The notes under the pieces are model-generated. The model saw only the letters and a program-made list of their open reading frames with translations. It did no database searches and was not told the origin of the DNA. The translations under genes were made by a program, and so were the position numbers. This document shows, piece by piece, positions 1-25,642 of a stretch of 64,000 bases of DNA. Within the stretch, counting starts at the first letter, position 1; each line of letters begins with the position of its first letter. Source of the stretch: Cymbomonas tetramitiformis (taxonomy: Eukaryota > Chlorophyta > Pyramimonadophyceae > Pyramimonadales > Pyramimonadaceae); NCBI GenBank assembly GCA_001247695.2, contig LGRX02024601.1, positions 23,687 to 87,686 on the forward strand, written 5' to 3'.

Positions 1-3000
1 GCGCTGAGTGAGCAGTACAGGGTGTCGAGCTGCACGGAGCTGCAGGAGAGCACGGGCGGGGCGATCTCGGCGGAGACAGAGAGCGAGATCATCGCGCAGT
101 GTGCCGCGACGTGCGGGGCGTGTGCAACGCCGCCGGCACCGCCGCCGCATGACGACTATGTCGACTCCGACTCTGACTCCGATACTGATAGCGACTCCGA
201 CATTCCACCTTCTCCTCCGCCGCTGAGTCTTCCACGCCCACCTTCTCCTCCAACGCCGAGTCCTCCACCCCCATTGTCGCCACCCTCTCCGCTGCCACCC
301 TCACCGCCGCCACCCTCACCGCTGCCTCCATCCCCACCGCCGCAGGAGGAGTGCGGGGACAACTCGACGTACTCGGTGTACGTCATCGACGGCTACTACA
401 ACTGCTCGCAGCTGACGGCGCTGAGTGAGCAGTACAGGGTGTCGAGCTGCACGGAGCTGCAGGAGAGCACGGGCGGGGCGATCTCGGAGGAGACAGAGAG
501 CGAGATCATCGCGCAGTGTGCCGCGACGTGCGGGGCGTGTGCAACGCCGCCGGCACCGCCGCCGCGTGACGACTATGTCGACTCCGACTCTGACTCGGAT
601 ACTGTTAGCGACTCCGTCATTCCACCTTCTCCTCCGCCGCTGAGTCTTCCATCCCCACCTTCTCCTCCAACGCCGAGTCCTTCACCCCCATTGTCGCCAC
701 CCTCTCCGCTGCCACCCTCACCGCCGCCACCCTCACCGCTGCCTCCATCCCCACCGCCGCAGGAGGAGTGCGGGGACAACTCGACGTACTCGGTGTACGT
801 CATCGACGGCTACTACAACTGCTCGCAGCTGACGGCGCTGAGTGAGCAGTACAGGGTGTCGAGCTGCACGGAGCTGCAGGAGAGCACGGGCGGGGCGATC
901 TCGGCGGAGACAGAGAGCGAGATCATCGCGCAGTGTGCCGCGACGTGCGGGGCGTGTGCAACGCCGCCGGCACCGCCGCCGCGTGACGACTATGTCGACT
1001 CCGACTCTGACTCGGATACTGATAGCGACTCCGACATTCCACCTTCTCCTCCGCCGCTGAGTCTTCCATCCCCACCTTCTCCTCCAACGCCGAGTCCTTC
1101 ACCCCCATTGTCGCCACCCTCTCCGCTGCCACCCTCACCGCCGCCACCCTCACCGCTGCCTCCATCCCCACCGCCGCAGGAGGAGTGCGGGGACAACTCG
1201 ACGTACTCGGTGTACGTCATCGACGGCTACTACAACTGCTCGCAGCTGACGGCGCTGAGTGAGCAGTACAGGGTGTCGAGCTGCACGGAGCTGCAGGAGA
1301 GCACGGGCGGGGTGATCTCGGCGGAGACAGAGAGCGAGATCATCGCGCAGTGTGCCGCGACGTGCGGGGCGTGTGCAACGCCGCCGGCACCGCCGCCGCG
1401 TGACGACTATGTCGACTCCGACTCTGACTCCGATACTGATAGCGACTCCGACATTCCACCTTCTCCTCCGCCGCTGAGTCTTCCACCCCAACCTTCTCCT
1501 CCAACGCCGAGTCCTCCACCCCCATTGTCGCCACCCTCTCCGCTGCCACCCTCACCGCCGCCACCCTCACCGCTGCCTCCATCCCCACCGCCGCAGGAGG
1601 AGTGCGGGGACAACTCGACGTACTCGGTGTACGTCATCGACGGCTACTACAACTGCTCGCAGCTGACGGCGCTGAGTGAGCAGTACAGGGTGTCGAGCTG
1701 CACGGAGCTGCAGGAGAGCACGGGCGGGGCGATCTCGGAGGAGACAGAGAGCGAGATCATCGCGCAGTGTGCCGCGACGTGCGGGGCGTGTGCAACGCCG
1801 CCGGCACCGCCGCCGCGTGACGACTATGTCGACTCCGACTCTGACTCCGATACTGATAGCGACTCCGACATTCCACCTTCTCCTCCGCCGCTGAGTCTTC
1901 CACGCCCACCTTCTCCTCCAACGCCGAGTCCTCCACCCCCATTGTCGCCACCCTCTCCGCTGCCACCCTCACCGCCGCCACCCTCACCGCTGCCTCCATC
2001 CCCACCGCCGCAGGAGGAGTGCGGGGACAACTCGACGTACTCGGTGTACGTCATCGACGGCTACTACAACTGCTCGCAGCTGACGGCGCTGAGTGAGCAG
2101 TACAGGGTGTCGAGCTGCACGGAGCTGCAGGAGAGCACGGGCGGGGCGATCTCGGAGGAGACAGAGAGCGAGATCATCGCGCAGTGTGCCGCGACGTGCG
2201 GGGCGTGTGCAACGCCGCCGGCACCGCCGCCGCGTGACGACTATGTCGACTCCGACTCTGACTCGGATACTGTTAGCGACTCCGTCATTCCACCTTCTCC
2301 TCCGCCGCTGAGTCTTCCATCCCCACCTTCTCCTCCAACGCCGAGTCCTTCACCCCCATTGTCGCCACCCTCTCCGCTGCCACCCTCACCGCCGCCACCC
2401 TCACCGCTGCCTCCATCCCCACCGCCGCAGGAGGAGTGCGGGGACAACTCGACGTACTCGGTGTACGTCATCGACGGCTACTACAACTGCTCGCAGCTGA
2501 CGGCGCTGAGTGAGCAGTACAGGGTGTCGAGCTGCACGGAGCTGCAGGAGAGCACGGGCGGGGTGATCTCGGCGGAGACAGAGAGCGAGATCATCGCGCA
2601 GTGTGCCGCGACGTGCGGGGCGTGTGCAACGCCGCCGGCACCGCCGCCGCGTGACGACTATGTCGACTCCGACTCTGACTCCGATACTGATAGCGACTCC
2701 GACATTCCACCTTCTCCTCCGCCGCTGAGTCTTCCACCCCAACCTTCTCCTCCAACGCCGAGTCCTCCACCCCCATTGTCGCCACCCTCTCCGCTGCCAC
2801 CCTCACCGCCGCCACCCTCACCGCTGCCTCCATCCCCACCGCCGCAGGAGGAGTGCGGGGACAACTCGACGTACTCGGTGTACGTCATCGACGGCTACTA
2901 CAACTGCTCGCAGCTGACGGCGCTGAGTGAGCAGTACAGGGTGTCGAGCTGCACGGAGCTGCAGGAGAGTACGGGCGGGGCGATCTCGGAGGAGACAGAG

Positions 3001-4640
3001 AGCGAGATCATCACGCAGTGTGCCGCGACGTGCGGGGCGTGTGCAACGCCGCCGGCACCGCCGCCGCGTGACGACTATGTCGACTCCGACTCTGACTCCG
3101 ATACTGATAGCGACTCCGACATTCCACCTTCTCCTCCACCGCTGAGTCTTCCACGCCCACCTTCTCCTCCAACGCCGAGTCCTCCACCCCCATTGTCGCC
3201 ACCCTCTCCGCTGCCACCCTCACCGCCGCCACCCTCTTCGCTGCCTCCATCCCCACCGCCGCAGGAGGAGTGCGGGGACAACTCGACGTACTCGGTGTAC
3301 GTCATCGACGGCTACTACAACTGCTCGCAGCTGACGGCGCTGAGTGAGCAGTACAGGGTGTCGAGCTGCACGGAGCTGCAGGAGAGTACGGGCGGGGCGA
3401 TCTCGGAGGAGACAGAGAGCGAGATCATCACGCAGTGTGCCGCGACGTGCGGGGCGTGTGCAACGCCGCCGGCACCGCCGCCGCGTGACGACTATGTCGA
3501 CTCCGACTCTGACTCGGATACTGATAGCGACTCCGACATTCCACCTTCTCCTCCGCCGCTGAGTCTTCCATCCCCACCTTCTCCTCCAACGCCGAGTCCT
3601 TCACCCCCATTGTCGCCACCCTCTCCGCTGCCACCCTCACCGCCGCCACCCTCACCGCTGCCTCCATCCCCACCGCCGCAGGAGGAGTGCGGGGACAACT
3701 CGACGTACTCGGTGTACGTCATCGACGGCTACTACAACTGCTTGCAGCTGACGGCGCTGAGTGAGCAGTACGGGGTGTCGAGCTGCACGGAGCTGCACGA
3801 GAGCACGGGCGGGGCGATCTCGGCGGAGACAGAGAGCGAGATCATCGCGCAGTGTGCCGCGACGTGCGGGGCGTGTGCAACTCCGCCGACACCGACGCTG
3901 CATGACAACTATGTCGACTCCGACTCGGACTCGGACTACGATACCGACTCCGACATTCCACCTTCTCCTCCGCCGCCGAGTCCTCCACCCCCACCTTCTC
4001 CTCCAACACCGAGTCCTCCACCCCCATTGTCGCCACCCTCTCCGCTGCCACCCTCACCGCCGCCACCCTCACCGCTGCCTCCATCCCCACCGCCGCCGGA
4101 GGAGTGCGGGGACAACTCGACGTACTCGGTGTACGTCATCGACGGCTACTACAACTGCTCGCAGCTGACGGCGCTGAGTGAGCAGTACGGGGTGTCGAGC
4201 TGCACGGAGCTGCACGAGAGCACGGGCGGGGCGATCTCGGCGGAGACAGAGAGCGAGATCATCGCGCAGTGTGCCGCAACGTGCGGGGCGTGTGCAACGC
4301 CGCCACCACCGCCGCTGTCGCCGCCGCTGGAGGAGTGCGGGGACAACTCGACGTACTCGGTGTACGTCATCGACGGCTACTACAACTGCTCGCAGCTGAC
4401 GGCGCTGAGTGAGCAGTACGGGGTGTCGAGCTGCACGGAGCTGCACGAGAGCACGGGCGGGGCGATCTCGGCGGAGACAGAGAGCGAGATCATCGCGCAG
4501 TGTGCCGCGACGTGCGGGGCGTGTGCAACTCCGCCGGCACCGGCGCCGCATGACAACTATGTCGATTCCGACTCTGACTCGGACTCCGATACCGACTCCG
4601 ACATTCCACCTTCTCCTCCGCCGCTGAGTCTTCCACCCCC
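1..4640 (+). repeat. Tandem array of 12 ShK-like + acidic + proline-rich modules
   Basis: Modules recur every 417 bp (139 codons); equivalent points lie at about 2, 419, 836, 1253, 1670, 2087, 2504, 2921, 3338, 3755, 4172 and 4403. The penultimate unit is only 231 bp because its linker is lost. Each full module holds six cysteines in the ShK-like spacing (EEC, YNC, SSC, then QC..TCGAC), an acidic DSDSDSD stretch, and a ~45-residue Ser-Pro linker. ShK-like domains are common in algal and metazoan secreted proteins as disulfide-bonded folds; nothing here suggests toxicity. Adjacent units differ by few substitutions, and the last three are the most diverged. Confidence 0.9.
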
Positions 4641-7600
4641 ATCACCACCTCCACTCTCACCCGCCACCTCACCAACCACTTTGCCCACCTCTTTACCCAC
4701 CCGCTTGCCGACAGACTCCCCCACCCCCTCGCCGGCGGACTCCCCCACCACCTTACGGCCGCCACCTCCACCAGGCACTGTCACCGTTGACTCGGTCAAC
4801 TCCTCGACATCATTTTCGGGACTGGACATCTCCGCGTTTAGCAACGCCTCATTTTCTGCCGAATTCCAGGCCTCCTTCTCGTCGCAGATGGCAGCTGCCG
4901 CAGGGGTGGGAACCTCGGACGTCGAGGTGACCTCCATTGTGAGTGGCAGTGTCAGTATCACGTCTAGTGTGTATTTCCCCAGCACCGCTACATCTACCGC
5001 CTCCGCCTTCTCCACTACTCTCACCTCAAACCCTGAAGCGGTCTTCACCACCTTCGGGAGTACCTATGGCAATGTAAGCGTGGCCAGTGTCCACGTGGCA
5101 ACAGCCACACAGGTCTACTCACCACCGCTGCCACCACCACTTCCACCTTCTACTTCCCCACCTCCGTCACCGCCGCCACCTCCTCCGCCGCCGCCACCGC
5201 CTCCGTGCCCGCCGCCGCCATCACCACCTCCGCCGCCGCCTCCGCCACCGTGTCCCCCGCCACCACCCTCGGATTTTGCGGCTTATGCCGTTCCCTCCAT
5301 CCGCCTGACCAGTGCGTCGCCGGGGTTCCCCACGAGCTCCGTGGCGTCCGCCATCGCGTCGGCGCAGTTCTACCGCACCTTCGCAGCCTTCAACAATGAC
5401 ATCCCCGGCAGTTCAGGAAACGCGGAGCTCCAGCTGGGAGGCACGCCATGCTCTGGAGGGGATCTGCCTGACAGCTTCAGCACTCGCTCCAGTGGGTCGT
5501 TCGCGACTGATAAGGAGCAGGTTGCAGTGGTGCGCGCGGTGCTGAGGACCGGCACAATCTACCACGACAGGTCCAGCATCAGCGTGCAGTACTCGGTGGT
5601 GGATGAGGCTGGGCGGCCGCAGGTGGACCTATCAGGGCTGAGTATGCAGATGGTGATAAGCAACAGCGATGCGTCGTCGACACTGAGCGGCTCCTGCGGC
5701 ACGCCGGACTCCTCCACGGGGACAGCGGACTGCTCCTCCAGTGATACGGAGGTTTTCAGCTGGTTCAGCACATCAGGATCAAGCACAGCAAGTGTGGTGG
5801 TGAGGGCGGAGTACAGCGGGGCCGTGCTGGCAGAGAGCGCGGCGATGGAGATGACGCTTGCGGCGCAGGTGGCGCACTCGGGGATGAGCAGCGCCGGGAT
5901 GGTCATGACGATGCCGGCGAGCCCGCGATACGCTGGAGACTCTTTCACGTCGCAGGTGTACGGCCATACCAGCGGGTATCCTCTGAGTACCTTCGGGTTC
6001 ACGGTGCTGTACAACAGCGCTGTGCTGCAGTACGACTCGACGACGGGTGACTCAAAGTACCTTACCCCGACGGTGAACGACTACACGGAGGGGCAGGTGG
6101 TGGTGCTGACGAGCGGGCTGGCTGACGGGGTGACAAATGCTGATGTGACCGGAGAGGCCATCGAGTTGGCAACCATCCAGTTCAGGTTGGCGTCAGATGC
6201 GAGCGCCCGGACGCACAGCAACGCGCTGAACTGCACGGTGAAGGAGATGGTGAGCACGAACAGCGTGCAGCTGGACGGCACGGTGAACGCGCCGGCGCAG
6301 ATCAACGACGAGAAGGGCGGAGCAGTGTACGAGGGGCAGCTGAGCGTGCAAGCCACGGAGGTGGTGGGGATGTATGCGTACGTGAGCGAGGCCGAGCTGT
6401 TCAACACGGGTTTCCTGACGGGCACGGCGGTGACGAGTGAGGTCACGGTGAAAGAGGTGTACAATCAGGTGGGGGTGGCCGACGGGGTGGCGGCGAGCCC
6501 GGCATGCTCCATCGACTCTCAAGGCGAAGTGGCTTGGGCCTCCGGGTGCACGGTGACTTTGGACGAGAGCCACACGGCGGGGGCAAGCGCCGTGAATGTG
6601 ACGGTGCGGACCGGGTCGCACAGCTCGCGGGTGGCGGTGCGGGTGTGGTTCCCACAGGAGGTGAGGGCGTGGGTGAGCGATGCGGAGCTGAATGCCATCG
6701 CCGGGGCATTCCAGGTGCAGGCGTGCGCACAGCCACGGTTTCAGAGCACGAACATCGGGGCCACGGCGACGTTCGGTGGGGCGGGGCTGAGCAATGTGAG
6801 TGGGCTGGACGTCAGCTGCATGGTGGAGTTTGCATCCACAAACTCCACGGCGCTGGAGGTGAGCGGCACAAGTGCACAAGGGCTGTCCGTGGGCCAAGCC
6901 GACGTGTACATCACAGGCGGCGCGGAGGCTCTCGAGACGATGGGCAGAGCGCAAGTGGAGGTGGCGCAGACGGAGGTGACGGTGGAGCACATGAGCGCAA
7001 TGCTGACCACCGGCGCGGAATGGGACGCTCTGGAGTCATCGAGTGTGAGCCTGGATGCGGCGAGCCAGCTTGAGGTGAGAGTGACGCTGCAGCAGACGCT
7101 GACCAAGGAGGAGCAGTACGGTCCCATCTTCACGTATGCGCTGTTCTCCGACTCGAGTCTGGTGGAGCTGAAGCAGGCCGACGGGGTGGAGGTGAGCGTG
7201 AATCCGGACTACGTGGCCTGCCTGGAGCTGTCGGATGACACGGAGTCGAGTGCGGACATGAAGGGCACGGTGCCCAGCGGCGGAGAGAGTGGCTCATCCC
7301 ACGGCATGCTGTTGGTGAACTGGCAGGATGCGTGCACTGGCACCGAAATCTCGACAGGGATCGGGGAAGTGACGGTGGCCTTGTCTCCTCCGGTGTCTGC
7401 TGCGATCACGGCGAAGCACTCCTCGATTGCGAGATCAACGGACCCGGCTGCGGCGAGCCCCATCAGCGTCCCGACGTCGAGCGCCCTGACCGTGGTGATG
7501 ACATATGAAGATGGCACCACCAAGGATATCACCATGGACTCGAGGACTGTGTACAGTGTGGTGGCAGGGGCGGACTTGGTGCTGGTGGAGCCCAGCAGCG

Positions 7601-9870
7601 CAGCCGCAGAGGCCAACAGCACGGCGAGCGAGTTCGGGAGTGCCACCATCAGGGCGTCGTTCCCAGAGTACAAGGGGGCCGAGAACATGAGTGCAAGCGT
7701 GGTGGTGGAGGTGATCGGGCTGGAGTATGTGACGCTGTTCACCAGCCCCTACCCGGAGTACAGTGGAAGCGGCTCGGTCAACGAGACCGCCCTGAGCGTG
7801 GTGCAGTGCAGCGGGGTGCACCAGCGGGCCACCATGGCGCTGACGGTAACGCTGACTGACTCGAGCACCACGGACGTGACCTCGGCAAGCACGTACACGT
7901 CCTCGGGCAGTGGAGGGCTTAGTGTGAGCGGCACGGAGCTGGTGGCCAGCGGTGTCGGGCAGTATGCGGTGACGGGTACGTTTGAGGGAGTGGCCAGCAA
8001 CAGTGTGGTGGTGACGGTGAGCGACGACGTTGTGTACATCACATCTGTGCAGCACACATCGAGCTGGGACTCGGCGACCACGTTCCACGACCACCAGAAT
8101 GCGACGAAGACCCTGAGTGTTGGGGTGGAGCTGAGCGACGGCACACAGTTCACAGATGCGGTGATCGGCACGCAGTCGAGCTGGATACCCGTGGCGCAGC
8201 TGCTGACGTTCTCGAGTGGCTCAACCGGAAGCATCAGCGTGGACGCCAATGGGGTGGCGACGCTGTTGGACAATCACTATGAGGCGGTGAGGCTGGTGGC
8301 GCAGGCCACCAACTGCTCTGCCGATGAATCGGGCAGCGCGTCACTTCCTTCTGACGTGGATGTGGTGAACGCCAACATGGCGCCGAAGGTGAATGACGTG
8401 GATCTGGGCAACGAGTATGGGCTGCAGTTCGACGTGGGGACGGCGGAGTCGTACATCGAGGTGCCGGTGTGGATCGAGACGGGGTCCGCGACGCTGAACG
8501 TGTTTGACATTCTGCTGACATTCGACCCGAGCCATCTGGAGGCCACGAGCTGCAGCGTGGGGAGTGCGTGGTCATCGTACGGCTTCACGTGCACGCTGAG
8601 CGATCCGGTGGAGGAGGTGCTGATCACGGGGGTGGAGATCTCAACGGATGTGCAAGGCTTGGTGCAGGTGGCCACGGTGCAGTTCAAGGTGCTGGCGGGC
8701 TTCTCGGTGACGGCGCTCACAGCCACCGTGCAGGGGCTTCAAACTTCATCGACGGAAATTGCGGAGGCGTACAGCGCCGTGGCGGGTCAAGGCATGGTGG
8801 CACAGGCTGGCCGGCGGCGCAGGCATCTGCTGAGCTCCTGGCAGGAGGTGCAGGGTGTGGCGGCGGAGCGGGCTCGCCGGCAGCAGCACGCGCAGGCGCG
8901 GCGGCTGCGGTCATCGGGAGAGATGTTTGGCGACGTGAACGGAGATGGCGTGTTCGACACGTTTGACACGCAAGCTCTGAAGAAGTGGGCCACCGGCTAT
9001 CCCGGGTACGGCATGGACGAGGTGGGCAGCCTGAGCGCGTTCCAGAGGCAGCAGCTGGACCCGACCCTGGACTACCTGTCCGCCGCGGACGACGTGTCGA
9101 ACTGCCCGACAGGATGGGATGTGGGCACGCCGTGCCCGTCGCCGCTGGATGCGCAGTACCTGCAGTATGTGTACGCCAACTTCCTGCGCTTTGTGAAGCT
9201 GGAGACCCAGGCGGACGCAGAGCCGGAGATATCCGGGGGCGAGATGACGATGTCCGTGGCCATCTACGACAAGAGCAGCGTGCCGGTGGTGAGCGACACG
9301 ACGGTGGTGCAGTACGAGCTGGGCACGACCGAGAACACCGACATGCAGGTGCTGGTAGGCCACAGCGCCTCCACAACGAGTGACGGGTGGATGGCAACGG
9401 CGGCAGGGCCAGACAGCACGGACGGCTCTTTCACGCTGAGCACCGCCGGCATGGCGTACAATGCAACGAGGTTCTGGGCGGAGACCGGGGTGGGGGTGGT
9501 GTTCATCCTGCGCACGTATGACACGCTGTACGCCACGTCCGAGGAGCGGGTATTTGCGTTCTGCGGGAGTGCGCTGGTGGGGTCGTCCTACTCCGCGTTC
9601 ACGACGTTTGACTTCCCGGAACCGCCTCCGCCGCCGCCTCCCCCCCCGCCTTCACCGCCGCCACCTCCACCACCGCCACCTCCTCCTCCGCCTTCCCACC
9701 TCCACCGCCGCCACCTCCATCACCCCCCACCCTCCACCACCTCCTCCCACCCCCTCCGCCGCCACCCCGTCACCCCCACCACCAACTATAACGACCTATG
9801 GTGGTTCGCTCGACACAATCGTTTACTTTCAGGGAACTTCAGACTCAACTTGTGTTTCAGTTTACGGTAG
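1..9870 (+). CDS. Giant modular surface/matrix protein, 5' part, intronless block
   Basis: The frame is open from the first base and runs 3,289 codons without a stop, so the true start lies upstream. Domains in order: twelve ShK-like modules with Ser-Pro linkers (1-4640), a SEA-like domain (4774-5120), poly-Pro (5115-5270), then unit 1: N-terminal beta domain (5271-5870), cohesin-like domain (about 5884-6345), TMEM132-like Ig region (6360-7240), Big-like Ig repeats (7260-8345), second cohesin-like domain (8370-8740), dockerin-like loop (8932-8967) and a beta-rich domain (9190-9610) ending in poly-Pro. Many NxS/T sites and paired cysteines indicate secretion. There are no introns, although units 2-4 have nine. 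Near 9695 a run of three C replaces four C in the other copies, so the last ~55 codons to the stop at 9868-9870 are probably out of the original frame. Role as adhesin or wall protein is inferred from domains. Confidence 0.85.
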   Translation, partial: ALSEQYRVSSCTELQESTGGAISAETESEIIAQCAATCGACATPPAPPPHDDYVDSDSDSDTDSDSDIPPSPPPLSLPRPPSPPTPSPPPPLSPPSPLPPSPPPPSPLPPSPPPQEECGDNSTYSVYVIDGYYNCSQLTALSEQYRVSSCTELQESTGGAISEETESEIIAQCAATCGACATPPAPPPRDDYVDSDSDSDTVSDSVIPPSPPPLSLPSPPSPPTPSPSPPLSPPSPLPPSPPPPSPLPPSPPPQEECGDNSTYSVYVIDGYYNCSQLTALSEQYRVSSCTELQESTGGAISAETESEIIAQCAATCGACATPPAPPPRDDYVDSDSDSDTDSDSDIPPSPPPLSLPSPPSPPTPSPSPPLSPPSPLPPSPPPPSPLPPSPPPQEECGDNSTYSVYVIDGYYNCSQLTALSEQYRVSSCTELQESTGGVISAETESEIIAQCAATCGACATPPAPPPRDDYVDSDSDSDTDSDSDIPPSPPPLSLPPQPSPPTPSPPPPLSPPSPLPPSPPPPSPLPPSPPPQEECGDNSTYSVYVIDGYYNCSQLTALSEQYRVSSCTELQESTGGAISEETESEIIAQCAATCGACATPPAPPPRDDYVDSDSDSDTDSDSDIPPSPPPLSLPRPPSPPTPSPPPPLSPPSPLPPSPPPPSPLPPSPPPQEECGDNSTYSVYVIDGYYNCSQLTALSEQYRVSSCTELQESTGGAISEETESEIIAQCAATCGACATPPAPPPRDDYVDSDSDSDTVSDSVIPPSPPPLSLPSPPSPPTPSPSPPLSPPSPLPPSPPPPSPLPPSPPPQEECGDNSTYSVYVIDGYYNCSQLTALSEQYRVSSCTELQESTGGVISAETESEIIAQCAATCGACATPPAPPPRDDYVDSDSDSDTDSDSDIPPSPPPLSLPPQPSPPTPSPPPPLSPPSPLPPSPPPPSPLPPSPPPQEECGDNSTYSVYVIDGYYNCSQLTALSEQYRVSSCTELQESTGGAISEETESEIITQCAATCGACATPPAPPPRDDYVDSDSDSDTDSDSDIPPSPPPLSLPRPPSPPTPSPPPPLSPPSPLPPSPPPPSSLPPSPPPQEECGDNSTYSVYVIDGYYNCSQLTALSEQYRVSSCTELQESTGGAISEETESEIITQCAATCGACATPPAPPPRDDYVDSDSDSDTDSDSDIPPSPPPLSLPSPPSPPTPSPSPPLSPPSPLPPSPPPPSPLPPSPPPQEECGDNSTYSVYVIDGYYNCLQLTALSEQYGVSSCTELHESTGGAISAETESEIIAQCAATCGACATPPTPTLHDNYVDSDSDSDYDTDSDIPPSPPPPSPPPPPSPPTPSPPPPLSPPSPLPPSPPPPSPLPPSPPPPEECGDNSTYSVYVIDGYYNCSQLTALSEQYGVSSCTELHESTGGAISAETESEIIAQCAATCGACATPPPPPLSPPLEECGDNSTYSVYVIDGYYNCSQLTALSEQYGVSSCTELHESTGGAISAETESEIIAQCAATCGACATPPAPAPHDNYVDSDSDSDSDTDSDIPPSPPPLSLPPPSPPPLSPATSPTTLPTSLPTRLPTDSPTPSPADSPTTLRPPPPPGTVTVDSVNSSTSFSGLDISAFSNASFSAEFQASFSSQMAAAAGVGTSDVEVTSIVSGSVSITSSVYFPSTATSTASAFSTTLTSNPEAVFTTFGSTYGNVSVASVHVATATQVYSPPLPPPLPPSTSPPPSPPPPPPPPPPPPCPPPPSPPPPPPPPPCPPPPPSDFAAYAVPSIRLTSASPGFPTSSVASAIASAQFYRTFAAFNNDIPGSSGNAELQLGGTPCSGGDLPDSFSTRSSGSFATDKEQVAVVRAVLRTGTIYHDRSSISVQYSVVDEAGRPQVDLSGLSMQMVISNSDASSTLSGSCGTPDSSTGTADCSSSDTEVFSWFSTSGSSTASVVVRAEYSGAVLAESAAMEMTLAAQVAHSGMSSAGMVMTMPASPRYAGDSFTSQVYGHTSGYPLSTFGFTVLYNSAVLQYDSTTGDSKYLTPTVNDYTEGQVVVLTSGLADGVTNADVTGEAIELATIQFRLASDASARTHSNALNCTVKEMVSTNSVQLDGTVNAPAQINDEKGGAVYEGQLSVQATEVVGMYAYVSEAELFNTGFLTGTAVTSEVTVKEVYNQVGVADGVAASPACSIDSQGEVAWASGCTVTLDESHTAGASAVNVTVRTGSHSSRVAVRVWFPQEVRAWVSDAELNAIAGAFQVQACAQPRFQSTNIGATATFGGAGLSNVSGLDVSCMVEFASTNSTALEVSGTSAQGLSVGQADVYITGGAEALETMGRAQVEVAQTEVTVEHMSAMLTTGAEWDALESSSVSLDAASQLEVRVTLQQTLTKEEQYGPIFTYALFSDSSLVELKQADGVEVSVNPDYVACLELSDDTESSADMKGTVPSGGESGSSHGMLLVNWQDACTGTEISTGIGEVTVALSPPVSAAITAKHSSIARSTDPAAASPISVPTSSALTVVMTYEDGTTKDITMDSRTVYSVVAGADLVLVEPSSAAAEANSTASEFGSATIRASFPEYKGAENMSASVVVEVIGLEYVTLFTSPYPEYSGSGSVNETALSVVQCSGVHQRATMALTVTLTDSSTTDVTSASTYTSSGSGGLSVSGTELVASGVGQYAVTGTFEGVASNSVVVTVSDDVVYITSVQHTSSWDSATTFHDHQNATKTLSVGVELSDGTQFTDAVIGTQSSWIPVAQLLTFSSGSTGSISVDANGVATLLDNHYEAVRLVAQATNCSADESGSASLPSDVDVVNANMAPKVNDVDLGNEYGLQFDVGTAESYIEVPVWIETGSATLNVFDILLTFDPSHLEATSCSVGSAWSSYGFTCTLSDPVEEVLITGVEISTDVQGLVQVATVQFKVLAGFSVTALTATVQGLQTSSTEIAEAYSAVAGQGMVAQAGRRRRHLLSSWQEVQGVAAERARRQQHAQARRLRSSGEMFGDVNGDGVFDTFDTQALKKWATGYPGYGMDEVGSLSAFQRQQLDPTLDYLSAADDVSNCPTGWDVGTPCPSPLDAQYLQYVYANFLRFVKLETQADAEPEISGGEMTMSVAIYDKSSVPVVSDTTVVQYELGTTENTDMQVLVGHSASTTSDGWMATAAGPDSTDGSFTLSTAGMAYNATRFWAETGVGVVFILRTYDTLYATSEERVFAFCGSALVGSSYSAFTTFDFPEPPPPPPPPPPSPPPPPPPPPPPPPSHLHRRHLHHPPPSTTSSHPLRRHPVTPTTNYNDLWWFARHNRLLSGNFRLNLCFSLR
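4774..5120 (+). other. SEA-like extracellular domain
   Basis: This ~115-residue stretch between two proline-rich linkers has the alternating strand-helix pattern seen in SEA-like domains of algal surface proteins: an FSAEFQASF helix, a Met-Ala-Ala-Ala helix, a TSDVEV strand and a GSVSIT strand. It carries NSS and NAS glycosylation sites. It occurs once, only upstream of unit 1, so it belongs to the N-terminal half of the protein and not to the tandem unit. The assignment rests on pattern only. Confidence 0.5.
5159..9785 (+). repeat. Tandem unit 1 (intron-free copy of cohesin/Ig/dockerin block)
   Basis: Homology to units 2-4 begins at 5159, exactly 112 bp before the conserved GGATTTTGCG at 5271. 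The nine splice junctions of the other copies correspond to 5416/5417, 5570/5571, 5622/5623, 5868/5869, 7263/7264, 7416/7417, 7567/7568, 8733/8734 and 8791/8792. The exon blocks between them are 154, 52, 246, 1395, 153, 151, 1166 and 58 bp. In unit 2 the same blocks are 154, 52, 246, 1395, 153, 151, 1181 and 58 bp, the single difference being an in-frame 15-bp indel. Each intron is missing to the base. Confidence 0.93.
8800..9190 (+). other. Polybasic site and dockerin-like calcium-binding domain (unit 1)
   Basis: At 8812-8823 four consecutive Arg codons precede HLLSS, a polybasic motif that could be a processing site. At 8932-8967 the sequence GDVNGDGVFDTFD matches the DxNxDGxxxxxD calcium loop of dockerins and EF-hands, followed by an ALKKWATG helix. 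The second half (CPSPLDAQYLQYVYANF) resembles a second, degenerate dockerin repeat. Equivalent domains occur in unit 2 (about 16349), unit 3 (about 23725) and unit 4 (about 31042). Dockerins bind cohesins in bacterial cellulosomes; here both types sit in one chain, so intramolecular or protein-protein assembly is inference. Confidence 0.7.
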
Positions 9871-10075
9871 GCAGAATGAGAACGTGACTTCTGTTAGTAT
9901 CAAAACGGTCTCAGGCCCAACAAACTTGTCATGGACTTTTCCAAATATCTCTGCAATGCACTCAACACCCTTGTGTGGGTATGAAATCGGAGAATACCTC
10001 TTGGCAGCAGAAGTGAGGTATGTGGATTACACAAAAGTCACCAGTTGGAACGCAACTATAACTTGCTTTTATGCT
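9785..10075 (+). CDS. 97-residue low-GC module between units 1 and 2
   Basis: In the frame beginning TITTYGG the sequence is open for 97 codons and is bracketed in the same frame by poly-Pro. It carries at least four cysteines and four glycosylation sites (NVT, NLS, NIS, NAT), and looks beta-rich. GC content is visibly lower than in neighbouring coding DNA. The frame differs from the preceding dockerin exon, so an intron, a frameshift or assembly error in the poly-Pro tract must lie between. A pyrimidine-rich run ending in AG at 9822-9831 could also act as a splice acceptor inside it. No family recognised. Confidence 0.5.
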
Positions 10076-10935
10076 CCTCCTCCTCCCTCGCCCCCACCTC
10101 CGCCACCTCCTCCTCCACCTCCGCATCATGCTCCTGGCGCTGCCCACCGCCTCCCCCGCCACCACCACCCCCACCGCCTCCCACCGCCTCACTCACCCAC
10201 CTCCTCCTCCGCCCCCACCGCCTCCACATGCACCTCACCGCCAGCACCTCCACCTCACCTCCCCCCACCTCCACCTCCCCCTCCTCCATCTCCCCACCGC
10301 CCGCCACCACCACCGCGCCACCTCCGTCACCTCCCCCTCCTCCCCCCGCCTCCTCCGCCCCCACCACCACCCCGTCCCCGCCACCTCCATCTCCCACCTC
10401 CCGCCACCTCCCACCTCCCGCCGTCGCACCACCACCACCACCACCAAGCCCCCGCCACCACCGCCACCGCCCCCGCAACCTCCCGTCCCGCCACCACCTC
10501 CCGCCGCCACCATCCGCCCGCCGCCACCGCCGCCACCTCACTTCCACCTCCCATCTCCCTCCTCCCACCCCCGCCGCCACCACCTCCGTCACCTCCCCCT
10601 CTCCTCCCGCCCCCGCCTCCCACCGCCTCACCACCACCGTCCCCCACCTCGCTCCCCACCTCCCACCGCCACCGCCGCCTCCCCATCTCCTCCACCTCCA
10701 CCAAGCCCCCGCCGCCACCCCCACCGCCCCGCCACCGTCACCACCACACCGCCTCCCGCCCGCCACCGTCACCGCCACCGCCCACCGCCTCCCCCACCGC
10801 CTCCACCACCTCCTCCCTCTCCTCTCCACGCCCTCACCGCCACCTCCACCACCTCCACCTCCAAGCCCTCCCCTCCACCCCCGCCGCCACCACCTCCGTC
10901 ACCCCGCCCCCCGTCGCCGCCACCTCCTCCCCCCC
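10076..10935 (+). repeat. C-rich proline-coding low-complexity linker, units 1 to 2
   Basis: About 860 bp made almost only of C, with CCA/CCG/CCT triplets and short irregular minisatellite blocks. All three + frames are largely stop-free and give Pro-, His/Arg/Leu- or Thr/Ala/Ser-rich peptide. The frame of the preceding 97-residue module and that of the following unit differ, so this linker does not connect them by direct reading. It may be coding with indels, contain an intron, or be collapsed or mis-assembled repeat. Confidence 0.7.
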
Positions 10936-13900
10936 CACCTCCGTCACCGCCGCCACCTCCTCCGCCGCCGCCACCGCCTCCGTGCCCGCCGCCGCCATCA
11001 CCACCTCCGCCGCCGCCTCCGCCACCGTGTCCCCCGCCACCACCCTCGGATTTTGCGGCTTATGCCGTTCCCTCCATCCGCCTGACCAGTGCGTCGCCGG
11101 GGTTCCCCACGAGCTCCGTGGCGTCCGCCAACGCGTCGGCGCAGTTCTACCGCACCTTCGCAGCCTTCAACAATGACATCCCCGGCAGTTCAGGTGAGCG
11201 GCGGCGCCCCGGGCCTTGATGCTGGCAGGCGCGAGGCGGTCTGTCCAGGCAAGGCTGATGCTATAGACCCTCGGAGGAGGTTCGGGGCAGCAGGCGTATG
11301 GCGGGTGAAGCTGGGCGGGACGGGGATGGCGCGCGGCAGGAAACGCGGAGCTCCAGCTGGGAGGCACGCCATGCTCTGGAGGGGATCTGCCTGACAGCTT
11401 CAGCACTCGCTCCAGTGGGTCGTTCGCGACTGATAAGGAGCAGGTTGCAGTGGTGCGCGCGGTGCTGAGGACCGGCACAATCTACCACGACAGGTGCGCG
11501 CGTACGCCCTGACAGAGGCTATGTCCACATGAGATGAGGGCCGTGTGCGGTGCTGGGCTGGGTGGAGGGGCTCGGGAGAGTGGAGCCAGGAATGTGGCCA
11601 CCGAGGATGGGAGGGGTTGTGGAGGGTGTGGGTGCTCGGAGCAGGTCCAGCATCAGCGTGCAGTACTCGGTGGTGGATGAGGCTGGGCGGCCGCAGGTGT
11701 GGTTTCTTTGCTCAGCGGTGATGAAGGATGCCATGAGTGCGCCATGAGTGCGGGTGTGGTGCTGGGGCGAGAATGGGGCACTGAGGAGGGTTGGGGGGGA
11801 AATGGGTGGGGCACAGGTGGACCTATCAGGGCTGAGTATGCAGATGGTGATAAGCAACAGCGATGCGTCGTCGACACTGAGCGGCTCCTGCGGCACGCCG
11901 GACTCCTCCACGGGGACAGCGGACTGCTCCTCCAGTGATACGGAGGTTTTGAGCTGGTTCAGCACATCAGGATCAAGCACAGCAAGTGTGGTGGTGAGGG
12001 CGGAGTACAGCGGCGCCGTGCTGGCAGAGAGCGCGGCGATGGAGATGACGCTTGCGGCGCAGGTGCGAGGGGTGACGGAAGTGTTGTGGTTGTGCTTGAG
12101 CTCGACGTCGATTACTTTTGTTCCACAAGCGGCGCAGTGTCCACATGCGACTGAGGCAGGCCGGCGAGGAGGGGGGGCGGTTGGTGGCAGGTGGCGCACT
12201 CGGGGATGAGCAGCGCCGGGATGGTCATGACGATGCCGGCAAGCCCGCGATACGCTGGAGACTCTTTCACGTCGCAGGTGTACGGCCATACCAGCGGGTA
12301 TGCTCTGAGTACCTTCGGGTTCACGGTGCTGTACAACAGCGCTGTGCTGCAGTACGACTCGACAACGGGTGACTCAAAGTACCTTACCCCGACGGTGAAC
12401 GACTACACGGAGGGGCAGGTGGTGGTGCTGACGAGCGGGCTGGCTGACGGGGTGACAAATGCTGATGTGACCGGAGAGGCCATCGAGTTGGCAACCATCC
12501 AGTTCAGGTTGGCGTCAGATGCGAGCGCCCGGACGCACAGCAACGCGCTGAACTGCACGGTGAAGGAGATGGTGAGCACGAACAGCGTGCAGCTGGACGG
12601 CACGGTGAACGCGCCGGCGCAGATCAACGACGAGAAGGGCGGAGCAGTGTACGAGGGGCAGCTGAGCGTGCAAGCCACGGAGGTGGTGGGGATGTATGCG
12701 TACGTGAGCGAGGCCGAGCTGTTCAACACGGGTTTCCTGACGGGCACGGCGGTGACGAGTGAGGTCACGGTGAAAGAGGTGTACAATCAGGTGGGGGTGG
12801 CCGACGGGGTGGCGGCGAGCCCGGCATGCTCCATCGACTCTCAAGGCGAAGTGGCTTGGGCCTCCGGGTGCACGGTGACTTTGGACGAGAGCCACACGGC
12901 GGGGGCAAGCGCCGTGAATGTGACGGTGCGGACCGGGTCGCACAGCTCGCGGGTGGCGGTGCGGGTGTGGTTCCCACAGGAGGTGAGGGCGTGGGTGAGC
13001 GATGCGGAGCTGAATGCCATCGCCGGGGCATTCCAGGTGCAGGCGTGCGCACAGCCACGGTTTCAGAGCACGAACATCGGGGCCATGGCGACATTCGGTG
13101 GGGCGGGGCTGAGCAATGTGAGTGGGCTGGACGTCAGCTGCATGGTGGAGTTTGCATCCACAAACTCCACGGCGCTGGAGGTGAGCGGCACAAGTGCACA
13201 AGGGCTGTCCGTGGGCCAAGCCGACGTGTACATCACAGGCGGCGCGGAGGCTCTCGAGACGATGGGCAGAGCGCAAGTGGAGGTGGCGCAGACGGAGGTG
13301 ACGGTGGAGCACATGAGCGCAATGCTGACCACCGGCGCGGAATGGGACGCTCTGGAGTCATCGAGTGTGAGCCTGGACGCGGCGAGCCAGCTTGAGGTGA
13401 GAGTGACGCTGCAGCAGACGCTGACCAAGGAGGAGCAGTACGGTCCCATCTTCACGTATGCGCTGTTCTCCGACTCGAGTCTGGTGGAGCTGAAGCAGGC
13501 CGACGGGGTGGAGGTGAGCGTGAATCCGGACTACGTGGCCTGCCTGGAGCTGTCGGATGACACGGAGTCGAGTGCGGACATGAAGGTGCGTGCCAGGGGC
13601 ACTTGGCGCTGCAGGTCATGGGGAAGGGGCTGGGGATTGGGGGGGGCGAAGGTGGTGATGGCTCGGAGGCGAGGAGGGCTGACGCGCGGAAGGGTGCTGG
13701 GAGGGGGGCATGCAGGGCACGGTGCCCAGCGGCGGAGAGAGTGGCTCATCCCACGGCATGCTGTTGGTGAACTGGCAGGATGCGTGCACTGGCACCGAAA
13801 TCTCGACAGGGATCGGGGAAGTGACGGTGGCCTTGTCTCCTCCGGTGTCTGCTGCGATCACGGCGAAGGTGCGCACGGCGACATGCGCAGCGTGAGCGCT

Positions 13901-16900
13901 TGTGGATGACACCCCAGGGTGCATGACGGGTGTTGGGGAGGCGATGGCTCGGGCGCTGGGGAGCGACGCCGCGGCAGGGAGGTGGGAGGGAAGCGTGGGG
14001 GATGCGCCAGCGGTGCAGAAGTCTTGCGGCTGTCCGTTGTATATACGAGGGGATCGCTACTGCGCCATGGCTGTGGCTTGGTGTTGCGTATTACATTACG
14101 GGCGTGTCGGCATGTCCGGGGGGTGATGGGCGGGATGAGTCGAGGAGGTGTGACTCGCGCCACTGGGTGTGTGCGTGCACAGCACTCCTCGATTGCGAGA
14201 TCAACGGACCCGGCTGCGGCGAGCCCCATCAGCGTCCCGACGTCGAGCGCCCTGACCGTGGTGATGACATATGAAGATGGCACCACCAAGGATATCACCA
14301 TGGACTCGAGGACTGTGTACAGTGTGGTGGCAGGTGCGGCGCAAACGAGGCCGCGAGGCGATGCAGGGAGTTGGAACTATGGCAGTAGGGTGAGGGGAGG
14401 CTGTGGATTGATGCGCCTTGGGAAATGAAGAGAGCGGAGGGGTGCGCAGGCACTGGACAGGCGGCTGAGGGGTACGAGGGGCTATGGGGAGGGAGGGGGC
14501 TGCAGGGGAGGACTTGGTGCTGGTGGAGCCCAGCAGCGCAGCCGCAGAGGCCAACAACACGGCGAGCGAGTTCGGGAGTGCCACCATCAGGGCGTCGTTC
14601 CCAGAGTACAAGGGGGCCGAGAACATGAGTGCAAGCGTGGTGGTGGAGGTGATCGGGCTGGAGTATGTGACGCTGTTCACCAGCCCCTACCCGGAGTACA
14701 GTGGAAGCAACTTGGTCAACGAGACCGCCCTGAGCGTGGTGCAGTGCAGCGGGGTGCACCAGCGGGCCACCATGGCGCTGACGGCAACGCTGACCGACTC
14801 GAGCACCACGGACGTGACCTCTGTAAGCACGTACATGTCCTTGGGCAGTGGAGGGCTGAGTGTGAGCGGCACGGAGCTGGTGGCCAGTGGTGTCGGGAAG
14901 TATACGGTGACGGGTACGTTTGAGGGCGTGGCCAGCAACAGTGTGGTGGTCACGGTGAGCGACGACGTTGTTTACATCACATCTGTGCAGCACACATCGA
15001 GCTGGGACCCTGAGACGTATTCGGAATCTGGGACGTTCCACGACCACCAGAATGCGACGAAGACCCTGAGTGTTGGAGTGGAGCTGAGCGACGGCACACA
15101 GTTCACAGATGCGGTGAGCGGCACGCAGTCGAGCTGGATACCCGTGGCGGAGCTGCTGACATTCTCGAGTGACGCAACCGGAAGCATCAGCGTGGACGCC
15201 GATGGGGTGGCGACGCTGTTGGACAATCACTATGAGGCGGTGAGGCTGGTGGCGCAGGCCACCAACTGCTCTGCCGATGAATCGGGCAGCGCGTCACTTC
15301 CTTCTGACGTGGATGTGGTGAACGCCAACATGGCGCCGAAGGTGAATGACGTGGATCTGGGCAACAAGGATGGGCTGCAGTTCGACGTGGGGACGGCGGA
15401 GTCGTACATCGAGGTGCCGGTGTGGATCGAGACGGGGTCTTCGACGCTGAACGTGTTTGACATTCTGCTGACATTCGACCCGAGCCATCTGGAGGCCACG
15501 AGCTGCAGCGTGGGGAGTGCGTGGTCATCGTACGGCTTCACGTGCACGCTGAGCGATCCGGTGGAGGAGGTGCTGATCACGGGGGTGGAGATCTCAACGG
15601 ATGTGCAAGGCTTGGTGCAGGTGGCCACGGTGCAGTTCAAGGTGCTGGCGGGCTTCTCGGTAACGGCGCTCGCAGCCACCGTGCAGGTGAGGCTGGGCAG
15701 CGTTCGGTTGTTTTGGGGGCGGGGCGCAAGAATAGTCCCTTACTTACGCTAAAATAACGTTTGCATATAAATTCGATCGGAACCTTAACACTGTGTAACA
15801 CTGCGTTAAATACACGCCATTTTTGCCAGTGGAGGCTGAATGTGTGGCGACCAACCAACAAGGACTTAGGGAGCGGGTGTGGGGATGGGTGGTCAGGGGC
15901 TTCAAACTTCATCGACGGAAATTGCGGAGGCGTACAGCGCCGTGGCGGGGCAAGGTGCGCTGTGATGGCCCCTCGTCCCCGCGTCTTCTGTGGGCTAATG
16001 GCGGCGCCGGGCCACGTGGTGCACGCGTGTTACGGGCGCAGCGACGCGGCATCGCTGGCGGGCGGCGCGTGCGCTATCAAGCTGGCAGCAGGACGGGCGG
16101 TGTGCGGGGAGCCACGCGTGTGGGTGCATTCGGAGCTTTGCCGTTGGCTCGGACATCACAGATATCTATACAGGGGTGAGAACAGGGGTGGGTGAGTTTG
16201 GGGCGCAGGCATGGTGGCACAGGCTGGCCGGCGGCGCAGGCATCTGCTGAGCTCCTGGCAGGAGGTGCAGGGTGTGGCGGCGGAGCGGGCTCGCCGGCAG
16301 CAGCACGCGCAGGCGCGGCGGCTGCGGTCATCGGGAGAGATGTTTGGCGACGTGAACGGAGATGGCGTGTTCGACACGTTTGACACGCAAGCTCTGAAGA
16401 AGTGGGCCACCGGCTATCCCGGGTACGGCATGGACGAGGTGGGCAGCCTGAGCGCGTTCCAGAGGCAGCAGCTGGACCCGACCCTGGACTACCTGTCCGC
16501 CGCGGACGACGTGTCGAACTGCCCGACAGGATGGGATGTGGGCACGCCGTGCCCGTCGCCGCTGGATGCGCAGTACCTGCAGTATGTGTACGCCAACTTC
16601 CTGCGCTTTGTGAAGCTGGAGACCCAGGCGGACGCAGAGCCGGAGATATCCGGGGGCGAGATGACGATGTCCGTGGCCATCTACGACAAGAGCAGCGTGC
16701 CGGTGGCGAGCGACACGACGGTGGTGCAGTACGAGCTGGGCACGACCGAGAACACCGACATGCAGGTGCTGGTAGGCCACAGCGCCTCCACAACGAGTGA
16801 CGGGTGGATGGCAACGGCGGCAGGGCCAGACAGCACGGACGGCTCTTTCACGCTGAGCACCGCCGGCATGGCGTACAATGCAACGAGGTTCTGGGCGGAG

Positions 16901-17206
16901 ACCGGGGTGGGGGTGGTGTTCATCCTGCGCACGTATGACACGCTGTACGCTACGTCCGAGGAGCGGGTATTTGCGTTCTGCGGGAGTGCGCTGGTGGGGT
17001 CGTCCTACTCCGCGTTCACGACGTTTGACTTCCCGGAACCGCCTCCGCCGCCGCCTCCCCCCCCGCCTTCACCGCCGCCACCTCCACCACCGCCACCTCC
17101 TCCTCCGCCTTCCCCACCTCCACCGCCGCCACCTACTCACCCTGCACCTCCACCACCTCCTCCACCCTCCGCCGCCACCCTCGTCACCCCCCACCACCAA
17201 CTATAA
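10936..17206 (+). CDS. Tandem unit 2: cohesin/TMEM132-like Ig/cohesin/dockerin block, 10 exons
   Basis: Same domain plan as unit 1, but interrupted by nine GT-AG introns: 11194-11339, 11494-11644, 11697-11816, 12063-12190, 13586-13715, 13869-14182, 14334-14505, 15687-15896 and 15955-16208. Removing them restores one frame matching unit 1 at >97% of residues. The first exon starts in poly-Pro and enters SDFAAYAV at about 11045. Dockerin loop is near 16349; the frame ends in poly-Pro at 17206. The first intron leaves phase 1. There is no convincing own start codon or promoter, and the 5' exon is fused to proline-coding DNA, so this is best read as internal exons of one giant gene. A separate tandem gene is the alternative. 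Confidence 0.8.
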
Positions 17207-17490: not shown

Positions 17491-18310
17491 CCTCCTCCTC
17501 CCTCGCCCCCACCTCCGCCACCTCCTCCCCCTCCACCTCCGCCTCCACCTCACCACCACCGCCTCCCCCGCCACCACCACCACCCGCCTCCATCCGCCTC
17601 CACCTCCACCCCCACCTTCCTCCCTCCCGCCCCCACCTCTACCTCGCCCACCGCCACCTCCTCCACCCCCGCCCCCACCTCCACCTCCACCTCCCCACCT
17701 CCACCTCCTCCTCCATCTCCACCGCCGCCACCACCGCCGCCACCTGTCACCTCCCCTCCTCCCGCCTCCTCCGCCCCACCACCACCGTCTCCCGCCACCT
17801 CCATCTCCACCTCCACCGCCACCTCCACCTCCGCTCGCCGCCGCCACCACCACCACCAAGCCCCGCCTGCCTCACCGCCACCGCCCCGCTCCGTCTCCGC
17901 CACCACCTCCGCCACCATCACGCCGCCGCCACCGCCGCCACCTCCGCCACCTCCATCTCCACCTCACCCCCGCCGCCACCACCTCTCGTCACCTCCTCCT
18001 CCGCCTCGCCACCGCCCACCACCACCGTCCCCCACCTTTATCTCCTCCACTCCACTGCCACCGCCGCTCCCCCCATTCCCTCCACCTCCACCACCAGCCT
18101 CGCCGCCACTCCCCACCGCCCCCGCCACCGGCCACCACCACCGCCCGCCACTGTCATCACATCACACGGGGCCCACCGCTCCCACCACCTCCTCCTCTCC
18201 CTCCTCCGCCCTCACCGGCTCACCTCCACCACCTCCACCTCCAAGCCCCCCTCCACCCCGCCGCCACCACCTCCGTCACCCCGCCTCTGCCGGCCGCTCA
18301 CCTCCTCCCC
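17491..18310 (+). repeat. C-rich proline-coding linker, units 2 to 3 (in frame)
   Basis: About 820 bp of C-dominated low complexity. Unlike the other two linkers, one frame is open across it and joins the upstream 97-residue module directly to unit 3, giving a long Pro/Ser/Thr/His-rich spacer. Length and internal order differ from the linkers at 10076 and 24866, showing rapid minisatellite-type turnover. Confidence 0.7.
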
Positions 18311-24300: not shown

Positions 24301-24660
24301 CTGCGCACGTATGACACGCTGTACGCTACGTCCGAGGAGCGGGTATTTGCGTTCTGCGGGAGTGCGCTGGTGGGGTCGTCCTACTCCGCGTTCACGACGT
24401 TTGACTTCCCGGAACCGCCTCCGCCGCCGCCTCCCCCCCCGCCTTCACCGCCGCCACCTCCACCACCGCCACCTCCTCCTCCGCCTTCCCCACCTCCACC
24501 GCCGCCACCTCCATCACCCCCACCTCCACCACCTCCTCCACCCTCCACCGCCACCCCCGTCACCCCCACCACCAACTATAACGACCTATGGTGGTTCGCT
24601 CGACACAATCGTTTACTTTCAGGGAACTTCAGACTCAACTTGTGTTTCAGTTTACGGTAG
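18311..24660 (+). CDS. Tandem unit 3: cohesin/TMEM132-like Ig/cohesin/dockerin block, 10 exons
   Basis: Nearly identical to unit 2 at DNA level, introns included. Introns: 18569-18714, 18869-19019, 19072-19191, 19438-19566, 20962-21091, 21245-21558, 21710-21881, 23063-23272 and 23331-23584. Intron 4 is one base longer than in units 2 and 4. Exonic differences from unit 2 are few, for example Glu-Gln instead of Glu-Lys before GGAVYEG. Exon 8 carries the 15-bp longer variant shared with unit 2. The dockerin frame runs through poly-Pro to a stop at 24660; the overlapping 97-residue module is in another frame. The high identity of introns implies very recent duplication or continuing gene conversion. 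Confidence 0.8.
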
Positions 24661-24865: not shown

Positions 24866-25642
24866 CCTCCTCCTCCCTCGCCCCCACCTCCGCCACCTCC
24901 TCCCCCTCCACCTCCGCCTCCACCACCACCACCGCCTCCCCCCGCCACCACCACCACCGCCTCCACGCCTCACCTCCGCCCCCACCTCCTCCCCCTCCGC
25001 TTCCACCCCACCGCCTCCACCGCCACCACCTCCGCCCCCACCTCCACCTCTTACCCTCTGCTCCCTCCTCATCTCCACATATACCTCTGCATACCTCCGT
25101 CACCTCCCCTCCCCCCCACCACCTCCTTCACCACCACCGGTCCTCCCACCTCCATCTCCTCCACCTGCCTCCACCTCCTTGGTAAGCCGCCACAACCACC
25201 ACCGAACCCCCGCCACTACCATGCCCGCCTGGATCCGCCACCTCCGCCGCCACCATCACCGCCGCCGCCACACCGCGCCACCTCGCCACCTCCATCTCCC
25301 TCCTCCACCGCCGCCGCCACCTCAGATCACCTCCTCCTCCGCCCGCCTCACCGCCCCCTACCACCGTCCCCCACCTCCATCTCCACCTCCACCGCCACAC
25401 TTCTCACCATCTCCACCACCTCCACCACCAAGCCCCCGCATACCCCCGCCCCCGCCACCGTCTACCACCGCCTCCGCCACGCCACCGTCACCGCCCAGCC
25501 GCCTGCCTCCCCCGCCTCCACCACCTCCTCCCCTCTCCTCCTCCACCTCACCGCCACCTCCACCACCTCCTGCCTCCGGCCTCCCCCCTCCACCCCGCCG
25601 CCACCACCTCCGTCACCCCCGCCCCCGTCGCCATGCCTCTCC
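24866..25642 (+). repeat. C-rich proline-coding linker, units 3 to 4
   Basis: About 780 bp of C-dominated low complexity like the other linkers, with TGCCTCC and CACCGCC blocks. The frame of the upstream module and that of unit 4 are offset by one position across it, so a direct protein connection requires splicing or an indel. Confidence 0.65.

Follow-up and report, generated by a model that had tools for sequence, protein, structure and literature searches.

Nine introns missing from one module of a tandem TMEM132-like array in the green alga Cymbomonas tetramitiformis: probable intron loss by way of a spliced transcript

The route by which introns disappear is still debated, the candidates being RNA or complementary DNA (cDNA) templates, break repair and plain deletion. 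Loss of adjacent introns mediated by mRNA or cDNA is argued for Cryptococcus (PMC2395259) and for mouse and rat (PMC3652778): the introns were removed exactly and in runs of neighbours, with the gene left in place. Exact deletion of consecutive introns is also reported from human cells, where double-strand breaks were repaired on RNA templates (PMC12065846), and for the plant gene ABCB1 repeated exact losses within one gene, with short repeats at the intron ends, are described (PMC5716013). Here we report on a comparable locus of the green alga Cymbomonas tetramitiformis. In a stretch of 64,000 nt, hereafter called the window, four tandem modules of TMEM132-like type follow each other, and the first of them, unit 1, has none of the nine introns present in the other three. 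We consider it probable, with good confidence, that unit 1 lost all nine recently through a spliced transcript or its cDNA as template, in place and within a working copy of a module of a giant TMEM132-like cell-surface gene. In the open-access literature searched we found no paper that pairs Cymbomonas with intron loss and, judged by titles and the beginning of abstracts, no precedent for intron loss in internal repeats.

All coordinates are those of the window, which corresponds to C15899:23687-87686 of the C. tetramitiformis assembly searched (851.7 Mb, 25,745 contigs). The published hybrid assembly is described as 914.3 Mb in 35,945 scaffolds, built with MaSuRCA from Nanopore and Illumina DNA reads (PMC10675990); we take the assembly searched to be the same one in another, smaller release. 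The proteins nearest to the module are from C. tetramitiformis. The four units were aligned at base level with MAFFT, followed by boundary analysis with placement of GT-AG borders, from which the junctions and introns below were obtained:

5143..9760, + strand: unit 1, intronless module with exons E1-E10 fused; TMEM132-like cohesin/immunoglobulin (Ig) module with a weakly dockerin-like end (alignment, domain search)
5416..5417, + strand: unit 1 junction 1, intron 1 absent
5570..5571, + strand: unit 1 junction 2, intron 2 absent
5622..5623, + strand: unit 1 junction 3, intron 3 absent
5868..5869, + strand: unit 1 junction 4, intron 4 absent
7263..7264, + strand: unit 1 junction 5, intron 5 absent
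7416..7417, + strand: unit 1 junction 6, intron 6 absent
7567..7568, + strand: unit 1 junction 7, intron 7 absent
8733..8734, + strand: unit 1 junction 8, intron 8 absent
8791..8792, + strand: unit 1 junction 9, intron 9 absent
10920..17190, + strand: unit 2, the same module with nine introns (alignment, splice-aware alignment)
11194..11339, + strand: unit 2 intron 1, GT-AG, 146 bp
11494..11644, + strand: unit 2 intron 2, 151 bp
11697..11816, + strand: unit 2 intron 3, 120 bp
12063..12190, + strand: unit 2 intron 4, 128 bp
13586..13715, + strand: unit 2 intron 5, 130 bp
13869..14182, + strand: unit 2 intron 6, 314 bp
14334..14505, + strand: unit 2 intron 7, 172 bp
15687..15896, + strand: unit 2 intron 8, 210 bp
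15955..16208, + strand: unit 2 intron 9, 254 bp
18295..24560, + strand: unit 3, the same nine introns, from 18569-18714 to 23331-23584 (boundary analysis, intron scan)
25627..31870, + strand: unit 4, the same nine introns, from 25901-26046 to 30648-30901, with a frameshift near 29720 (boundary analysis, splice-aware alignment)

Unit 1 shows nine long gaps in the alignment, and each of them is a GT-AG intron in units 2, 3 and 4 (27 of 27). The lengths of these introns are 146, 151, 120, 128 (129 in unit 3), 130, 314, 172, 210 and 254 bp. At all nine junctions of unit 1 the removal is exact at the splice borders. An earlier note on this DNA had claimed the absence of nine introns to the base and had named a base-level alignment as the check; alignment and boundary analysis confirm it. 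The exon-block lengths given there were correct as well: E2-E9 of unit 1 measure 154, 52, 246, 1395, 153, 151, 1166 and 58 bp. The 1166 bp of E8 compare with 1181 bp in units 2 and 3, an in-frame difference of 15 bp, and with 1167 bp in unit 4. There 14 bp instead of 15 bp are missing, and the resulting frameshift near 29720 is either a real lesion or an assembly error. Unit 1 starts near 5143 in a proline-rich stretch, its final exon extends to about 9760, and the proline-rich end of E10 has small indels among the units. In E5, unit 1 differs from units 2, 3 and 4 at 6, 6 and 8 of 1397 columns (0.4–0.6%), and its match to these units is far beyond chance. The nine introns are mutually unrelated, as blastn among them gave no cross-matches at E 0.01; thus, they do not form an introner family.

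Whether introns were lost or gained was read from related loci. In the following, U1-U4 are the units of the window; D1-D3 lie on contig C10324, and the modules called E, F, G, H, A and B on C1376, C1393, C25060, C21860, C24813 and C23464, respectively. Intron positions and phases were determined with a custom splice-aware protein-to-DNA aligner, which replaced gap calling from tblastn, unreliable for short exons. D1-D3 have all nine introns, with GT-AG borders and at the same bases as in units 2–4. At the DNA level D differs from U2 by 2–32% in exons (13% in E5) and by 28–53% in introns. All nine positions and phases were recovered in U2, U4, D1 (85% protein identity), E1376b (61%), G25060a (57%) and F1393a and c (52 and 51%). 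A second scan found the nine positions filled in 11 of 11 units (U2-U4, D1-D3, E1376b, F1393a, b and d, G25060a), with E1376a, which is cut by the contig start, and F1393e lying outside the splice-aware scan. G25060b, cut by the fetched stretch, has introns 2–7 and an intron called at 81.1 instead of 91.1, and sites 8–9 fall outside it. In a protein tree of 18 rows U1 groups with U2 and U4 (99/100) within the intron-bearing paralogues, the U units being nested in D, P0012, E/G/H and then F in succession. Because unit 1 is nested in a nine-intron clade and the paralogues have introns at the same positions and phases, its state is, judged from these comparisons, a loss.

The opposite explanation, introns gained in the ancestor of units 2–4, had been named as the alternative in the earlier note. 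Distant members of the family are indeed often intronless: among the best 48 of 365 candidates, 17 further places with 31–47% identity, a count that excludes U1, A, B and H21860, cover intron sites 5–7 as one block, and P0011, with 1489 residues, comes from a contig of 4664 bases. However, had the introns been gained after unit 1 split off, nine insertions would have had to strike identical bases in parallel, as positions and phases are common to paralogues outside the U clade down to 51% identity. With all nine positions filled on C10324, C1376, C1393 and C25060, gain is excluded as far as the paralogues allow and provided that these loci are assembled correctly, and we give it next to no probability. 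Gain of introner type was ruled out by the common positions together with the unrelated intron sequences. Still, the intron content of the family varies widely (C25111 has introns 1, 3, 4 and 6 of the nine), to which older losses or late gains may have contributed; some of the nine introns may themselves have been gained long ago.

Silent divergence of U1 is 0.017, 0.015 and 0.011 from U2, U3 and U4, compared with 0.006–0.016 among U2-U4 and 0.25 between U1 and D1. The loss should therefore be recent, as only 1.1–1.7% silent divergence separates unit 1 from its neighbours against 25% from the next array. Its frame is open, with neither stop nor frameshift, and the ratio of nonsynonymous to synonymous changes is 0.47–0.49. 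Unit 1 thus reads as a recent, maintained coding module, although conversion of its exons by neighbouring units can lower its apparent age below that of the intron loss.

Unit 1 had been singled out as the case of intron loss. The loss is real, but it is not unique. Module B (C23464:8794-13377) is free of all nine introns; module A (C24813:2190-6957) is free of introns 2–9 and keeps intron 1, which differs by 0.7–1.4% from intron 1 of U4 and U2. Both lie in long open frames, of 1670 codons for B and 1884 codons for A, B having a frameshift near the end of the module. In the more distant H21860, introns 5–8 are absent while 1–4 and 9 are present, and its nearest relative in the tree, G25060a, keeps all nine. 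This makes four modules with losses inside the nine-intron clade, each time of a run of neighbours (U1 and B 1–9, A 2–9, H21860 5–8); for H alone, the chance of four contiguous introns out of nine is 0.048. A DNA search, in which the best candidates were scored, gave nine places with at least 86% identity (U1-U4, A, B, D1-D3), and among them only U1, A and B are intronless.

These three do not look like descendants of one event. Among derived sites polarised by D, none is common only to U1, A and B, to U1 and A or to U1 and B; 35 are common to A and B, 6 to U2, U3 and U4, and 11 are private to U1 (counted without gapped columns and without the first 130 and last 30 columns). Monophyly of U1, A and B was rejected by the approximately unbiased (AU) test with p 0.0026 over 1416 columns of E8-E10, a stretch clear of the longest D-type patches although some short ones lie in it. 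Over the full 4343 columns p was 3.8e-52, a value inflated by mosaics. Copying of the U1 exons from A or B was ruled out by the site patterns and the AU test. Since a grouping of these three, the closest intronless modules, is not accepted by the test, the introns were likely lost on two or more separate occasions; the alternative is a single old loss, after which neighbours overwrote the exons of U1.

How could nine introns vanish to the base? That the losses are exact and contiguous, keep the frame and fall on single modules speaks for a template free of introns, namely spliced RNA or its cDNA. A spliced transcript of the gene, or its cDNA, would have served as template during recombination or repair of the unit 1 DNA; it would have paired with exons at both ends, and the DNA in between would have been replaced by the intron-free version. 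We infer that all nine introns were lost together, with RNA or cDNA as the template, and that the exchange occurred in place rather than by insertion. Exchange in place is the likelier course because unit 1 is in register and has kept its homologous linker to unit 2. Furthermore, no A-tract was seen in 9501-11220, target-site duplications not having been searched for. The proposal made at the outset, reverse transcription of a spliced mRNA followed by recombination or insertion, is therefore the best-supported reading with regard to the template, given the exact removal at nine of nine junctions, the ancestral introns and the runs of neighbours; of its two ways of integration, recombination in place agrees with the kept linker, and insertion finds no poly-A in the stretch mentioned. 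Module A keeps intron 1 and is without intron 2, which places its 5' break point between these introns, around exon 2, as would be expected of a 5'-truncated cDNA.

No single extant unit qualifies as the source of U1, as none matches throughout: U1 is U4-like at 7884-8248, elsewhere has states common with U2 and/or U3 against U4, and has private sites too. In exon 8 the segment 7884-8248 comes in two haplotypes, one in units 1 and 4 and another in units 2 and 3. A reverse transcriptase (RT) within the window had also been offered as a pointer to the mechanism. The RT/RNase H open reading frame (ORF) at 53730-55652 (RVT_1, E 1.2e-16; YLDD motif) belongs to a mobile element, presumably DIRS-like, and says nothing about the enzyme used. 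The presence of an RT in the window is without meaning because more than 100,000 retroelement copies are counted in the published assembly (PMC10675990); at least one expressed retrotransposon is mentioned in PMC5741210.

Several other routes lead to an intronless module. Unit 1 could have received its exons by DNA gene conversion from another intronless copy, be it A, B or one outside the assembly, the cDNA event having happened elsewhere. Such copies do exist (C24813, C23464), and copies of this family do exchange sequence, as seen from the 2517-bp identical stretch of A and B, whose downstream flanks have pieces that are 80–85% identical, with one of 141 bp at 91%. Against this stand the absence of derived sites common only to U1 with A, B or both, compared with 35 for A and B, and the rejection of their clade over the 1416 columns and far more strongly over the whole. 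Of the nine places that reach 86% identity, three are intronless, namely U1, A and B, with an unseen copy possible as the best candidates were scored; we regard conversion from such a copy as unlikely. Closer to the favoured explanation is RNA-templated repair of a double-strand break, in which the spliced transcript is copied directly, with neither a retroelement enzyme nor free cDNA. The study on human cells describes exact and consecutive intron deletions and argues against retrotransposon activity (PMC12065846), and this route does not need a 3' bias, which suits a 5' unit. It is, however, a variant of the favoured explanation, and the present data do not separate it from a cDNA template; taken as the actual route it is conceivable but has the smaller part of our belief.

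Nine separate genomic deletions by end joining at short repeats of the splice borders are a very improbable origin. Repeats of 2–7 bp do flank each lost intron, and end joining is argued for ABCB1 (PMC5716013). But nine deletions would have hit one unit with the frame kept and 0 of 27 introns in its three sisters, which under independent losses at equal rates has a probability of 1.5e-5. Moreover, the border repeats at retained introns of other arrays (means 3.8–4.3 bp) are much the same as at lost introns, and since kept introns carry them too, they look like splice consensus and not like a mark of deletion-prone sites. Finally, the missing introns might be the work of the assembler, which could have painted the sequence of an intronless paralogue over unit 1. 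The genome is repetitive and inferred by its authors to be tetraploid, and a MaSuRCA hybrid assembly of it (PMC10675990) lends itself to this; the identical stretch of A and B could itself be painted. The assembly libraries are DNA, however, and therefore intronless DNA must exist. Around six of the junctions (2, 5, 6, 7, 8 and 9), the nearest 50 bp tell unit 1 apart from A as well as from B. B is distinct at junction 1 too, where A still has its intron; unit 1 agrees with B at junction 3, however, and with A at junction 4. Among the best 40 of 314 candidates the whole 5' flank of unit 1 with E1 was matched at unit 1 only, and no intron-bearing allele of unit 1 was found in the assembly. We therefore hold an artefact to be very unlikely.

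Some observations weigh against a spliced transcript as the template. No poly-A and no cDNA end is seen, so the template is not seen directly, although none would be expected from recombination. The affected unit is the 5'-most one, whereas poly-A-primed cDNA favours 3' ends; A, which keeps the 5'-most intron, would fit such a bias, and H21860, having kept intron 9, needs an internal template or a later exchange. Intron loss is tied in PMC3652778 to mRNAs translated on free ribosomes, and the product here looks like a surface protein. Exon exchange among paralogues blurs both the age and the number of events, P0012, branching next to D in the tree, has no known intron state, and all of this comes from one assembly.

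Exon sequences are mosaic in U, A, B and D. Between the U and D arrays exons 2–3 differ at 0 of 40 fourfold sites, whereas introns 1–3 have diverged by 29–41%. Exon 6 of A and B is of D type at 22 of 22 diagnostic sites, and the edges of this patch lie in stretches of 15 and 7 bp that hold vanished junctions. The likeness of exons 2–3 and the D-type exon 6 suggest exchange with a spliced template. As proof of such a template the homogenisation of exons 2–3 is weakened, because four of the five U-D differences in these exons cluster at positions 145-148 of exon 2, which allows two separate tracts; the swap of exon 6 in A and B could have been made while introns were still present. C24813:3958-6474 (A) and C23464:10403-12919 (B) are identical over 2517 bases, which may reflect recent conversion or assembly painting, so that small-scale mosaics are weaker evidence than presence or absence of introns. 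Taken further, spliced transcripts might repeatedly rewrite this family, RNA- or cDNA-templated conversion stripping runs of introns and homogenising exons across loci while introns diverge; this broader idea is tentative, and we think it rather less likely than not to hold. On the source contig the roughly 12 kb that begin at about 22.87 kb and end at the first intron of unit 2 showed no intron, although the frame shifts in proline-rich stretches, and all of this DNA could be cDNA-derived. At about 22.0-22.9 kb of C15899, upstream of the window, lie two tandem copies, 91% alike, each with a GT-AG intron-like stretch.

The module contains a TMEM132 Ig domain (PF16070, 37 bits against a cut-off of 27), preceded by a cohesin match that stays just below its cut-off (PF00963, 23.7 against 24.1 bits). 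It is the fourth TMEM132 domain that is matched; the sixth was below cut-off, as was a weak dockerin match in the last exon (E 0.028). Of five AlphaFold2 models the best had a mean predicted local distance difference test score (pLDDT) of 71.8, the others 52–62. Among the matches listed for the best model (the best 50 of 1896 in PDB) are seven cohesin chains with target-normalised template modelling (TM) scores of 0.65–0.68; the rows ranked higher are large beta-rich assemblies with TM below 0.2. Viral contigs and phage records were searched as well, and no relative came up. Probably the four modules belong to a single giant surface protein, although the reading frame changes in the proline-rich linkers and no placeable intron was seen there. 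Around the units the following features are present:

1..4701, + strand: 417-bp repeats with ShK-like domain, in frame with unit 1 (repeat comparison, domain search)
9761..10919, + strand: proline-rich linker between units 1 and 2, with counterparts between units 2 and 3 and units 3 and 4 (unit comparison)
32229..34100, + strand: ORF after unit 4 with a likely transmembrane segment and cytoplasmic tail (transmembrane segment read by eye from the translation)

The frame that is open from 22 to 9870 contains unit 1 together with the eleven copies of the 417-bp repeat, which code for ShK-like domains and proline-rich linkers and are 85–99% identical to the first over 300 bases. In 32229..34100 no Pfam family scored above cut-off. 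TMEM132-like cohesin/Ig modules, possibly with dockerin-like ends, such as window 5866-7260 and its homologues, form a large family in this green alga. From 34000 to 64000 the G+C content of the window is about 47–55%, down from about 65%, and this half holds, besides the RT/RNase H ORF, a zinc-finger ORF at 47994-51410 with a DUF4371 match below cut-off.

One module is without nine introns that three copies in the same array, about 1–2% different at silent sites, have kept, and related loci have runs of varying length (1–9, 2–9, 5–8); template, break points and enzyme thereby become testable in one culturable alga. If our explanation is true, this phagotrophic green alga has a giant surface protein whose gene is in part rewritten from its own transcripts as it evolves. 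As to its architecture, the module resembles the cohesin-BIG arrangement of TMEM132, with PF16070 above cut-off and a cohesin-like domain before it, for which an early holozoan origin was given in 2017 (PMC6030884). It differs in occurring in a green alga, in tandem modules, with proline-rich linkers, a weakly dockerin-like end and ShK repeats. Compared with the losses described for Cryptococcus (PMC2395259) and rodents (PMC3652778), the affected copy is one of four near-identical modules of an array, so that its sisters are internal controls; nine introns are involved, and A, B and H21860 are affected also. The deletions described for human cells come from cell lines and tumours and comprise up to five consecutive introns (PMC12065846), whereas here the locus is part of a reference assembly and nine introns are missing. 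For ABCB1 the authors favour end joining (PMC5716013); in Cymbomonas, each loss is a run of neighbouring introns and stays within one module. Thus, the mechanism is known in kind, and it is the setting that is unusually clean, recurrent and within one array.

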